Shown in pieces: positions 32,831 to 38,942 of a stretch of DNA of 64,000 nt (positions within the stretch are counted from its first letter, which is position 1; each line of letters begins with the position of its first letter). The notes beneath the pieces are model-generated. The model made no database searches. It was given only the letters and a program-made list of their open reading frames with translations, and was not told the origin of the DNA. The stretch covers positions 1-64,000 of the forward strand of contig JALVYU010000031.1 of NCBI GenBank assembly GCA_027022365.1, in the 5' to 3' direction. This stretch comes from Desulfurococcales archaeon. GTDB taxonomy: Archaea; Thermoproteota; Thermoprotei_A; Sulfolobales; Desulfurococcaceae. Made by a program: the position numbers and the translations under genes.

Positions 32831-33271
32831 ATGTCCGGATCAGAAGAAAACACGTCCCAGAAAAAACGAATAATCGATCTCAAATCCGGAGAAGAAAACG
32901 TCCACGTAACCGGAAGGGTTCTCGAGACAACCCCTCCTAGGGTAATACAGACGAAAAGAGGACCTAGAACAATCAGCAACGCCATTATCGGTGACGAATC
33001 AGGCAGAGTCCAAGTAACCCTCTGGGGAAGCAAGGCCGGTAGCCTTGAAGAAGGAAAAGTCGTTGACATCAAGGGTGCATGGACGACCAGCTTCAGAGGC
33101 AAAGTCCAACTAAATATAGGTAGGTCAACAAACGTGGAAGAAGTACCCGACGAGGAAGCACCGCAGCCCGAGGAAATCCCCGAAGACCAGCCAACAGCAC
33201 CATACACACCGTCCAGGAGACAAGGCTTCGGACGTGGCAGGAGAAGATACTATCGCCAAGGAGGATTCTAA
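32831..33271 (+). CDS. ssb: single-stranded DNA-binding protein (crenarchaeal SSB)
   Basis: A 146-residue SSB with one OB fold at residues about 20-105 (ENVHVTGRVLETTPPRVIQT, ISNAIIGDESGRVQVTLWG, KVVDIKGAWTTSFRGKVQLNIG), an acidic, proline-rich linker (VPDEEAPQPEEIPEDQPT), and a short arginine/glycine-rich C-terminus (RRQGFGRGRRRYYRQGGF). The Sulfolobus SSB has one OB fold and a flexible acidic tail; the basic RG-rich end here is notable and could bind nucleic acid. TATA-like GATATATTAACC at about 32767 precedes it. The PqqD-like gene follows 1 bp after its stop. Confidence 0.88.
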   Translation: MSGSEENTSQKKRIIDLKSGEENVHVTGRVLETTPPRVIQTKRGPRTISNAIIGDESGRVQVTLWGSKAGSLEEGKVVDIKGAWTTSFRGKVQLNIGRSTNVEEVPDEEAPQPEEIPEDQPTAPYTPSRRQGFGRGRRRYYRQGGF

Positions 33272-33272
33272 G

Positions 33273-33629
33273 GTGTCCAATATGGAGAGCGGGGAAATGT
33301 CCGTCCCAAACAATAGCAATGAGAACAAGATATCCGAGAAAGCCAGGAAAATATATGATCAATTAAAGGAGAAGAAGCCAAAAAGAAACGGTGCATTCCT
33401 AGGCGAGGAACAAGACAAGTTCTACGTGGCGAAGTCCGAGGAGGAGATCTACGAGCTCTCAGCGCTCGCTTATTACGTATGGCTCCTCTGTGACGGCGAA
33501 CACACAGTCGAGGAAATAGCCAACAAGATAAGCGAGGACGTGCAGGTCTCGGTGGAGGAGGTCATAGAACCCCTCGCTCTAGCTATTAATAGTCTCAACG
33601 AGGCAGGACTAGTAGAGATCGCGAACTAA
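33273..33629 (+). CDS. PqqD-like small protein
   Basis: A 118-residue protein whose C-terminal 75 residues match the PqqD fold: DKFYVAKSEEEIYELSALAY, then YYVWLLCDGEHTVEEIANKI and VEEVIEPLALAINSLNEAGLVE. PqqD domains bind leader peptides of ribosomal peptide substrates for radical SAM maturases (RRE function). The start is taken as GTG 33273, with AAGGAGGAT (33258-33266) upstream inside the end of ssb; the frame opens earlier at 33234. It is co-transcribed with ssb, an unexpected partner, and a SPASM radical SAM enzyme is encoded 4 kb downstream. Confidence 0.75.
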   Translation: MSNMESGEMSVPNNSNENKISEKARKIYDQLKEKKPKRNGAFLGEEQDKFYVAKSEEEIYELSALAYYVWLLCDGEHTVEEIANKISEDVQVSVEEVIEPLALAINSLNEAGLVEIAN

Positions 33630-35079: not shown

Positions 35080-36153
35080 ATGAAAACTCTTCGAACTATA
35101 CTCCTACTAATTCTATTGACTCTATCATTGGCCCCGATAATGGTGAGCGTAAATGCTACGGCACAGTCTAGTAATCCTTTGGACTGGTTTAATCTCACAA
35201 TAATAATTAATGGCTCGATAACCAATCTAGGAGACAAGCCACTCCCTATAAACCAGACAGACCTCCTCGTATTTGATTATCCTATTAACATGTCTACACA
35301 GAAAGTCATAGGAGTAAAGACGTATGTAAACGGCACACCTTATCCCTATAAAATACGGGGACCATGGTATAATCCGAGCCTAGTGATACAGGCACCGAAG
35401 TACGAAAAAATGAGCTTGATGCCAGGCCAGACAGTGACTAGCATGGCGGTATATAACGTCTCGGTCAATGTGGCTCAGCGCCTATTACAAGCAACAAGTA
35501 TAAAGCCTGAACTGGCAGAGGGCTGGAAGTACATACCAGCTAAGATAAAGTCTAACTATACACAGGCAACACCGCTCTGGAACTACTCTAACCCGCTAAT
35601 TAATCTATTCATAACATATATCCGGTCACAGGAGCGTACAAAAACCCCATTAGGAGCCGTAGAGGAGGTTCTAAAATGGTTTGATAAGAACGTCAAATAC
35701 AAGACAAGAATACCTGCCAGACAGCCATGGGAAACTCTGATGTATATGGAGGGCGATTGTGACGATCAGTCGAACTTGCTCATAACCGTTCTCCGCGGAA
35801 TAGGTGTGCCAGCCTACCTAGAGATAGGAATAGTCTATATCATGGGGCTAAACATAACAAGCAAAGCCGCTGACGGTCTCCTCGAGTATAGGTTTGTGAA
35901 CGGGGGAACTCATGCATGGACAACCGCCTATGTTCCGCCATGGGGCTGGATAAGAATCGATCTAACGGCTAGTCTAGGGATAGGGATTAATCACATTAGG
36001 GGAGCAGCCTACTACATCTACCCTACAGTTGTAATATCAAAAGTCTATGGACAGAACTATGCTGCAAGCTCGGCCAAATTCACGGAAGAGCTAGTATCCA
36101 AGAAGATAGCTTATAGGGTAACGATAGAATTAATCACTCCCGAGAAATCATAG
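35080..36153 (+). CDS. secreted transglutaminase-like protein
   Basis: A 357-residue exported protein with a signal peptide (MKTLRTILLLILLTLSLAPI ... NATA, residues 1-28), a sequon-rich N-terminal domain, and a transglutaminase-like core with the full catalytic triad: cysteine in MEGDCDDQSNLLITVLRGIGVPAY (about residue 227), histidine in GGTHAWTTAYVPPWGW, aspartate in RIDLTAS. Archaeal members are thought to be cysteine proteases or amidases acting on cell-surface proteins. No membrane anchor is apparent at the C-terminus. It begins 7 bp after the glycerate kinase stop. Confidence 0.85.
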   Translation: MKTLRTILLLILLTLSLAPIMVSVNATAQSSNPLDWFNLTIIINGSITNLGDKPLPINQTDLLVFDYPINMSTQKVIGVKTYVNGTPYPYKIRGPWYNPSLVIQAPKYEKMSLMPGQTVTSMAVYNVSVNVAQRLLQATSIKPELAEGWKYIPAKIKSNYTQATPLWNYSNPLINLFITYIRSQERTKTPLGAVEEVLKWFDKNVKYKTRIPARQPWETLMYMEGDCDDQSNLLITVLRGIGVPAYLEIGIVYIMGLNITSKAADGLLEYRFVNGGTHAWTTAYVPPWGWIRIDLTASLGIGINHIRGAAYYIYPTVVISKVYGQNYAASSAKFTEELVSKKIAYRVTIELITPEKS

Positions 36154-36155
36154 TT

Positions 36156-36240
36156 CTAGATAGGAACCGGATGACCGAAGACTCCAATACTGAGACCATA
36201 TGTCTATGAGGAAACTCCACCCCTCGGGACGGCTATCTAG
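36156..36240 (+). ncRNA. hairpin with consensus kink-turn in a convergent intergenic region
   Basis: Outer helix CTAGATAG (36156-36163) with CTATCTAG (36233-36240), a GAA bulge, CCG/CGG, then 5'-GAT-GA (36170-36174) opposite GA (36228-36229), then CCGA/TCGG. A three-nucleotide bulge followed by tandem G-A pairs between a C-stem and an NC-stem is the kink-turn consensus bound by L7Ae. The loop contains a further AGAC-CATAT-GTCT hairpin. Only the plus strand forms the kink-turn. It fits neither a complete C/D nor an H/ACA RNA; it could be a structured 3' UTR or a novel sRNA, or simply a terminator shared by the convergent genes. Confidence 0.4.
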
Positions 36241-36569
36241 TATTTTGGTGGTACATAGCGTTTAGCAAGATCCTCATAGTTCTCAGTGATCATGGATATG
36301 ATCTCGTTACGATGAACTCTCGTTAAGTGAAGGTAGAAACCTCTCCTCGTAAACGGTCCCTTACCACATATACCGCACCTGATGAGTCCCTTCTGTATGA
36401 CTACTATGTCGGATGCAACGATGTTTACAACCTTCCTCATAATAGGGTATCTTGACGAGCCAGTAATTCTATGTAAATCAATGTCGTCAACAGGTAGGCC
36501 GGAAGCCTTCCTTGCAATATATTCAACTAACCTGTTAGCAATAGCCTCAACACTAACCACTCTAGGCAC
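36237..36569 (-). CDS. small C2H2-type zinc-finger protein
   Basis: A 110-residue basic protein with a single zinc finger CGICGKGPFTRRGFYLHLTRVH (C-x2-C-x12-H-x4-H, about residues 64-85), preceded by a helical domain (AIANRLVEYIARKASGLPVDD ... YPIMRKVVNIVASD). Single C2H2 fingers are frequent in crenarchaeal and viral DNA-binding proteins, so a transcription factor is likely. GTG 36569 opens the frame and GTG 36560 is an alternative with AAAGGTG upstream. A TATA-like ATATATTAAA lies directly before the start. Confidence 0.7.
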   Translation of the reverse strand: MPRVVSVEAIANRLVEYIARKASGLPVDDIDLHRITGSSRYPIMRKVVNIVASDIVVIQKGLIRCGICGKGPFTRRGFYLHLTRVHRNEIISMITENYEDLAKRYVPPKY

Positions 36570-37454: not shown

Positions 37455-38942
37455 ATGCCAGAGAAGAAGAAAAGGGGAGGAGTAGGAGCATTCTTAGCAG
37501 GCATAAGACTGCTGTTCAACAATCCAGTGACGAGAAGAGCGTTGTTGCTGGCATCAAAAGAATATGTCTGCAAATACGGTGAAAAAGATGTCAAAGCACC
37601 CGTGATCTACCATAGCTTATCCAGTATCGCGGGCGAACCCGTAGAATGCCCATTGGCAGCCGGAATACTCATGGGCATCATAAAGAAGATAATAATGTTC
37701 GGCGTTCATGTACTGAAAGGCGATGAAGAAGAAGTAAAGAAGGCGCTTAGCGACCCGGCTATAAGGAGAGGTATAACGCTGGTTATGAAGGGCCTTGGAT
37801 TATACGGCGTAACCGTACCGCAGAAGATGCCGGCGCCATTCCTTATAGTCTGGAATTTCACCAACATGTGCAACTTTAGGTGCAAACACTGTTACCAGAG
37901 AGCGGATAGGCCTCTTCCCGACGAGCTAAGCCTCGAGGAGAAGATAATGCTTGTCGACCAGCTGGATAAAGCGGGCGTTGCAGCTGTCGCTCTTAGTGGC
38001 GGTGAGCCAACGATACATCCCCACTTCCTCCGGATAGTCCGGGAGATAGCTAGCAGGGGAATGTACGTGGCTGTGGCAACAAATGGATGGGTGTTTGCAG
38101 ACATTGAGAGGCTTAAGAAGGCCAAGGAGGCGGGAGTACGCTACGTAGAAATAAGCGTGGACAGTGCCGATCCGAAGAAACATGATGCATTCAGGGGCAC
38201 GCCCGGTGCCTGGGAGCATGCAGTTAAAGCCCTAGAAAACGCGGTGAAGCTAGGAATAAACCATGCCATGGCCGTGACGATCACGAAGGCTAACCTGGAC
38301 GAGGTTGACGAGATACTGGATCTAGCGGAGAGCATAGGCGTGAAGAGAGTGATATTCTTCAACTTCATACCTGTTGGAAGAGGTATCGAGATAAGCCACT
38401 TGGATCTCACGCCGGAGGAGAGGGAGAGGTTTCTGCGGAAGCTCTATATTGAAATGAAGAAGCGGAAAGGCATGGAGATCATAAGTACCGCGCCCCAGTA
38501 CAGCCGTGTAACACTTCAGATGAGCAGCGGGGAGGAGATAGCACCTACACACTTCTATGTGGGTGATGACCCCATAGTAAAAGCCCTGGCTGAATTCATA
38601 GGTGGATGCGGAGCTGGGAGAATATATGCGGCCGTACAACCAAACGGTGATGTAACCCCGTGTGTGTTCATGCCATTAAAGGTCGGCAATATAAGAGAGA
38701 CACCATTCTGGGAGATATGGACAAAATCACCAGTGCTATTGAGCCTGAGGGATCGCGAAAAACTGAAAGGAGGGTGCGCAAGATGCCCCTACAAGTACAT
38801 ATGTGGAGGATGTCGTGCAAGAGGATATGCATACTTCAATGACCCGTTAGCCCCGGATCCTGGATGCATTATAAATCTGAAGCACTGGAAAGAGCTAATG
38901 GAGATGAAAAAAGTAAAGATAACTGTCGCCCATAATCAATAG
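37455..38942 (+). CDS. SPASM-domain radical SAM protein
   Basis: A 495-residue radical SAM enzyme. The 4Fe-4S/SAM motif is MCNFRCKHCYQ (cysteines 139, 143, 146), followed by VALSGGEPTIHPHF and ATNGW. The C-terminal SPASM region carries auxiliary-cluster cysteines in FIGGCGAGR, VTPCVFMP, GGCARCPYKYICGGCRARGYA and DPGCI. The first 110 residues are an extra helical domain with two cysteine-containing stretches. SPASM enzymes modify peptides or proteins (PqqE, anSME) or act in haem synthesis (AhbC/D). A PqqD-like gene is 4 kb away; no precursor peptide is seen next to this gene. Confidence 0.88.
   Translation: MPEKKKRGGVGAFLAGIRLLFNNPVTRRALLLASKEYVCKYGEKDVKAPVIYHSLSSIAGEPVECPLAAGILMGIIKKIIMFGVHVLKGDEEEVKKALSDPAIRRGITLVMKGLGLYGVTVPQKMPAPFLIVWNFTNMCNFRCKHCYQRADRPLPDELSLEEKIMLVDQLDKAGVAAVALSGGEPTIHPHFLRIVREIASRGMYVAVATNGWVFADIERLKKAKEAGVRYVEISVDSADPKKHDAFRGTPGAWEHAVKALENAVKLGINHAMAVTITKANLDEVDEILDLAESIGVKRVIFFNFIPVGRGIEISHLDLTPEERERFLRKLYIEMKKRKGMEIISTAPQYSRVTLQMSSGEEIAPTHFYVGDDPIVKALAEFIGGCGAGRIYAAVQPNGDVTPCVFMPLKVGNIRETPFWEIWTKSPVLLSLRDREKLKGGCARCPYKYICGGCRARGYAYFNDPLAPDPGCIINLKHWKELMEMKKVKITVAHNQ

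Follow-up and report, generated by a model that had tools for sequence, protein, structure and literature searches.

A probable dual-guide box C/D small RNA with variant, mutually compensated boxes and two predicted 16S rRNA sites in a Desulfurococcales archaeon

The window, by which we mean the whole 64,000-nucleotide stretch of Desulfurococcales archaeon DNA that was analysed, holds a pair of convergent genes with a conserved RNA element between them. On the plus strand, a transglutaminase-like gene (Pfam PF01841) occupies positions 35080-36153, and on the minus strand its convergent neighbour (36237-36569) encodes a 110-residue protein with a zinc-finger-like C/H pattern, for which no Pfam or NCBIfam match was found. 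The conserved core of the RNA, as bounded by the covariance-model match, comprises 66 nucleotides of the plus strand (36167-36232) and begins 13 nucleotides past the transglutaminase stop codon, a distance at which the core may be co-transcribed with the transglutaminase-like gene. Flanking the core are the arms of an 8-bp outer stem (CTAGATAG/CTATCTAG; 36156-36163 with 36233-36240), the 3′ arm of which shares nucleotides with the convergent gene's stop codon. Promoter and terminator patterns were not seen near the RNA in a scan of bacterial type. In the wider neighbourhood, Pfam places a PqqD-like protein (33234-33629, plus strand) near a radical SAM/SPASM protein (37455-38942, plus strand). 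Such pairs often occur in peptide-modification systems.

The original prediction described this intergenic region as a long hairpin with a consensus kink-turn, and all of the letters it described are present. Inward of the outer stem lie a GAA bulge and CCG/CGG, followed by a GAT bulge with GA on one strand side and GA opposite, then CCGA/TCGG and finally AGAC/GTCT. The pattern and the fold, however, are both at chance level. Counting a 3-bp stem, NNN, GA/GA and a 4-bp stem on both strands gave 3 occurrences in the window versus 2.9 expected (sd 1.8) from 100 random windows matched in dinucleotide composition, and the kink-turn pattern by itself was therefore dropped as evidence. Folding of the 105-nucleotide strand was no better than that of shuffled sequences (z -0.56, with 59 of 200 shuffles at least as good), and single-strand folding produced a signal on neither strand. 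The 8-bp stem exists as described, but all eight pairs are kept in just two of the six genus genomes, this genome included, so we rejected it as a conserved element and regard it as lineage-specific. What stands of the hairpin as a structure is its inner part, 36167-36232, which is conserved as an RNA; within the NC stem CCGA/TCGG, conservation is limited to the first two pairs, and the following two extend into a guide region.

Conservation of the core reaches well beyond the genus. A 131-base query found matches over 104 to 131 bases in the five remaining genomes of the genus; in most of the rest of the family, the match was restricted to about query positions 40-101 (36169-36230). Homologs were gathered by iterated profile searches and 32 of them were aligned with MAFFT. 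A covariance model built from 22 of these 32 (R1) detected the RNA in 85 of 214 genomes of the order, and a second model built from 86 sequences (R2) gave matches in 111 of the 229 genomes sampled from the class, all of them within one order. Within the family, model R2 recovers the core from 37 of 40 genomes. The phylum sample behaved in the same way (34 of 398 genomes matched, all within the order), so that neither the class sample (229) nor the phylum sample (398) contained a homolog outside the order; members of families f9 and f11 listed in the phylum search gave no match. The three family genomes without the RNA (G018 and G026 of genus g14, and G110) matched neither model, and since G018 and G026 are near complete and belong to one genus, the RNA has likely been lost there.

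The conserved core has the anatomy of a box C/D guide RNA. Reading along the plus strand, box C (AUGACCG, 36171-36177; consensus RUGAUGA), in which G36173 and A36174 form sheared pairs, is followed by the D′ guide GACUCCAAUA (36180-36189), box D′ (CUGA, 36190-36193), a D′-C′ stem-loop (36194-36204) that pairs GAC at 36194-36196 with GUC at 36202-36204 and is kept by compensatory changes, box C′ (AUGAGGA, 36206-36212), the D guide CUCCACCCCU (36215-36224) and box D (GGGA, 36226-36229; consensus CUGA). The same order and spacing of C, D′ guide, D′, short stem-loop, C′, D guide and D is found in the 32 aligned homologs. The apical hairpin of the original prediction is the D′-C′ stem and its kink-turn is the C/D motif; its statement that a D box is lacking was wrong, as a CUGA box D′ and a degenerate box D are both there, and the guide RNA was overlooked because box D reads GGGA.

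The letters from which the tandem sheared G·A pairs are built, the RUGA core of box C and the ..GA of box D, are present in the window as AUGA and ..GA, and across the homologs the sheared G·A/A·G letters of C/D are complete in 79 of 86 sequences and incomplete in seven. Box C position 6 and box D position 1 can also form a Watson-Crick pair, which is C-G in the window. Outside these letters the boxes depart from the full consensus (RUGAUGA and CUGA), with box C positions 5-7 of the window copy likewise deviating, and for this reason we file the RNA as a variant with compensated boxes. Such departures are common among the homologs: both boxes are fully canonical in only 4 of 86, and box D reads CUGA in 21 and something else in 65. 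The second motif, C′/D′, combines CUGA/AUGAGGA with the GAC/GUC stem and is backed by covariation, the guides beside D and D′ are complementary to rRNA with their fifth nucleotide paired, and the genome encodes fibrillarin (G000:C7:90594-91271, E 9e-109). The putative C/D architecture accounts for the conserved parts of the RNA.

Two sets of homologs depart from this anatomy at the D guide. The guide has been lost in two of the 86 sequences (L074 and L080, genus g13), where box C, the D′ guide, D′ and C′ remain and the RNA lies in tandem with the neighbour gene rather than convergent. We looked for a new target of the replaced stretch, and as its longest match to the rRNA of this genome is 5-6 bases, none was assigned. 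At six further loci (L017, L020, L064, L071, L073 and L185) the D guide and box D together form the palindrome CCCCUAGGGG, in which box D is preceded by one additional nucleotide.

Covariation was assessed on an alignment that had not been fitted to the structure, namely the MAFFT alignment of 22 of the 32 homologs. The 14 pairs reached a covariation score of 0.226, compared to 0.105 (sd 0.019) in shuffled alignments, none of 500 shuffles attaining the observed value, and sliding the 3′ partners dropped the score to 0.150 or less. In the same alignment the D′-C′ stem is 90% paired, with both sides varying at all three pairs. The pair counts of the order-wide set (86 sequences, 84 distinct) come from an alignment fitted to the model, and therefore leaning towards it: at D′1-C′6, CG 43, GC 30, AU 7, UA 1 and other 3 among the 84 distinct sequences; at C6-D1, CG 37, GC 24, UA 7, UG 2, AU 1, other 10 and gap 3 among the same 84; and at C5-D2, CG 35, AU 9, UA 8, GC 6, GU 3 and other 21, including U·U. 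The comparison of relatives that the original prediction had proposed as a check thus finds compensatory changes in both the D′-C′ stem and the C/D kink-turn. Conservation together with covariation supports its view of a structured plus-strand RNA, probably one that binds L7Ae, while the suggestion of a new L7Ae-binding class finds no support, the anatomy being that of a box C/D methylation guide aimed at 16S.

The variant box D can be rationalised by comparing families. In the window, C:G occupies both of the C/D positions that adjoin the sheared G-A pairs, where the canonical motif has U:U and G:C. When the box pairs were taken from ungapped ends, C:G and C:G recurred in 34 of 37 members of family f1, whereas family f8 has mostly A:U, U:U or A:A with G:C, family f2 has U:U with U:A in six of seven and family f4 has G:C or G:U with C:G in all three. 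The pairs therefore vary in a linked manner across families, and GGGA represents one state of a motif that is maintained by paired changes. According to a passage in PMC5689011, archaeal box C/D RNAs strongly favour U:U at 3b:3n and G:C at 4b:4n; the family of this RNA differs from them in having GGGA, with C:G at both positions. Standard (Kt-7-like) kink-turns of rRNA and riboswitches resemble the motif in the three-nucleotide bulge, the tandem G·A pairs and the C:G at 4b:4n. They differ at -1b:-1n, which is G:C in the window and in 64 of 86 homologs, and a passage in PMC5689011 describes kink-turns with C at -1n as a type that does not fold in Mg2+ alone and folds with L7Ae. A further difference is that the C/D motif is one half of a guide RNA with two kink-turns.

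Both guides find partners in the 16S rRNA of their own genome. The D′ guide forms nine contiguous pairs with AUUGGAGUC and the D guide ten with AGGGGUGGAG, the two sites being 21 nucleotides apart. Equal paired matches arose in two of 100,000 shuffled guide pairs and at 3 of 127,510 other 62-mers of the window, which overlap and are thus not independent. The fifth nucleotide from box D′, C36185, lies opposite a 16S guanine at contig position C7:1336, and the fifth from box D, C36221, opposite a guanine at C7:1315; this fifth nucleotide is paired in 86 of 86 sequences for the D′ guide and in 84 of 86 for the D guide. On the side of the target, a search of 61 genomes returned no 16S match for 39, and in all 22 that gave one the target cores are identical. 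On the side of the guide, 25 of the 26 departures from consensus at D′ guide positions 3-10 still pair as G-U (seven C to U and 18 A to G), a single A to U breaking the pairing, and the D guide retains its full ten pairs in 55 of 86 sequences. The spacer between the D guide and box D measures 1 nucleotide in 56 of 86 sequences, 2 in 28 and 0 in two, and the predicted target guanine therefore shifts by one nucleotide. The target guanines align to positions 950 and 971 of one E. coli 16S gene of 1,554 nucleotides, the usual E. coli 16S length being 1,542; anchoring on G966, we take them to be about G941 (C7:1315) and G962 (C7:1336) in E. coli numbering. In the Rfam archaeal 16S model the D′ target falls at a CCGG...CCGG hairpin, which we take for h31, and both predicted methyl marks would presumably lie near the P site.

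We consider it very probable that the RNA is a dual-guide box C/D small RNA with variant boxes and two predicted sites in 16S rRNA, and most likely it would direct two methyl marks onto that rRNA. The observations behind this reading are the sequence itself, its conservation, the covariation of both kink-turns, the 16S complementarity with its upkeep, and the fibrillarin gene. Once transcribed, the RNA would be bound by L7Ae at the C/D and C′/D′ kink-turns, and Nop5 and fibrillarin would join the L7Ae-bound RNA. In 16S, the D′ guide would then pair at the h31 hairpin, and the strand 21 nucleotides upstream of that site would be bound by the D guide. Fibrillarin would thereupon methylate the 2′-OH opposite the fifth guide position from each D box, at the 16S guanine C7:1336 (about E. 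coli G962) for D′ and at C7:1315 (about G941) for D. Any effect on the folding of the 16S head would be a further possible consequence. In the family of this RNA, the C/D kink-turn would have passed from U:U and G:C to C:G and C:G by paired changes, which would explain why box D reads GGGA.

It is improbable, in our estimate, that the RNA serves mainly as a 16S folding chaperone, with a degenerate C/D motif that no longer supports methylation by the D guide. Roles of this kind are proposed for such guides in a passage of PMC4644070, and the frequent departure of box D from CUGA (65 of 86) would fit, as would the variable spacer of 0, 1 or 2 nucleotides that moves the predicted target by one; against this, the C/D kink-turn is maintained by compensatory changes and shows no decay, and the fifth guide nucleotide pairs in 86 of 86 sequences at D′ and in 84 of 86 at D. 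We regard it as very unlikely that the D guide acts on 23S rRNA rather than 16S. Ten contiguous pairs with GAGGGGUGGA can indeed be formed in the same genome, but GAGGGG and CCCCUC flank this 23S site, placing it in a hairpin, and beyond GAGGGGUG its sequence varies among relatives that have kept the D guide as it is. The full site is also carried by G018 (locus L145), a genome without the RNA, whereas the competing 16S site is identical in all 22 genomes that gave a 16S match and adjoins the D′ target.

The genes beside the RNA bear on its origin. Relatives of the convergent gene occur in 48 of 61 genomes searched, 12 of which have no RNA in the compiled list. In the 36 genomes with both, gene and RNA are adjacent and convergent in 22, adjacent and divergent in three, in tandem in three (two at 66 nucleotides, one at 763) and apart in eight. 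Convergent cases come from families f1, f2, f7 and f8, a spread that speaks for common descent rather than independent origin. That the RNA works as a structured element in the 3′ UTR of the transglutaminase-like gene, binding L7Ae and controlling that mRNA, is hardly credible even though the 13-nucleotide distance may place both on one transcript, for close relatives of that gene (76-92% identity) are confined to the five congeners among the 12 loci found while the RNA occurs in 111 of 229 class genomes, it is the convergent zinc-finger-like gene that accompanies the RNA from family to family (22 of 36), and two guide-like stretches with maintained 16S complementarity are unexpected of a UTR hairpin.

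Dual-guide box C/D RNA, the reading we prefer, is a well-known kind of RNA; what is unusual here is the wide conservation and the mutually compensated box sequences. The archaeal layout is defined in a passage of PMC7994747, a review of archaeal dual-guide box C/D sRNAs, and predicted sites of such RNAs are given in PMC4644070. They share with this RNA the length, order and spacing of the boxes, two guides of 9-10 nucleotides aimed at nearby 16S sites, tandem G·A pairs, a short D′-C′ loop and a location beside the 3′ end of a gene. In Rfam, no family reached its cut-off on the window, nor did any except tRNAs on 20 homolog loci; a lax search of the window gave one match (12.5 bits versus a cut-off of 80), which we took as chance. 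A close counterpart is sR46 (RF01130), which we take to be a Pyrococcus RNA. Its D′ guide aims at the same 16S site, whereas its D guide is another and its boxes are canonical. Three order-wide homologs match sR46 below the gathering cut-off (24.5, 23.9 and 21.5 bits versus 50), and the window's own copy gave no sR46 match. Where the D′ guide of the window (GACUCCAAUA) reads GACUCC, the sR46 consensus D′ guide, GAAUCCAAUG, reads GAAUCC; at the target, this genome shows GGAGUC and the Rfam archaeal 16S consensus GGAuUC. The change of C to A in the guide is thus compensated by G to U in the target, in support of 16S as the target of D′. A T. kodakarensis RNA named sR46 has RNA-seq reads according to a passage in PMC9014305. 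Searches of the main texts of the papers covered, among them searches for the guide words, returned nothing that names the RNA.

The persistence of both guides and both kink-turns across many families of one order, with linked changes in the boxes, supplies a set of naturally occurring pair swaps in kink-turns on which L7Ae rules can be tested. It also suggests that box searches requiring CUGA, or the U of the U:U pair, would miss such RNAs. The two methyl marks predicted on 16S are measurable. More tentatively, and with rather little confidence, we propose that the switch to C:G and C:G is functional, pre-pairing the NC helix and giving the motif its own behaviour in L7Ae binding or assembly, and that the two guides together clamp the 16S head (h29-h31) in an ancient arrangement passed on vertically. 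If true, such a clamp would contrast with the usual rapid turnover of archaeal guides, which a passage in PMC7994747 describes as turning over fast with few shared sites.

As a separate observation, the 16S gene of this genome is interrupted at G000:C7:286-1256 (L084 451-1128, plus strand), where 971 bases span 328 model positions. Inside the interruption lies a 225-residue frame with two LAGLIDADG-like stretches, and the interruption is probably a 16S intron with a homing endonuclease.
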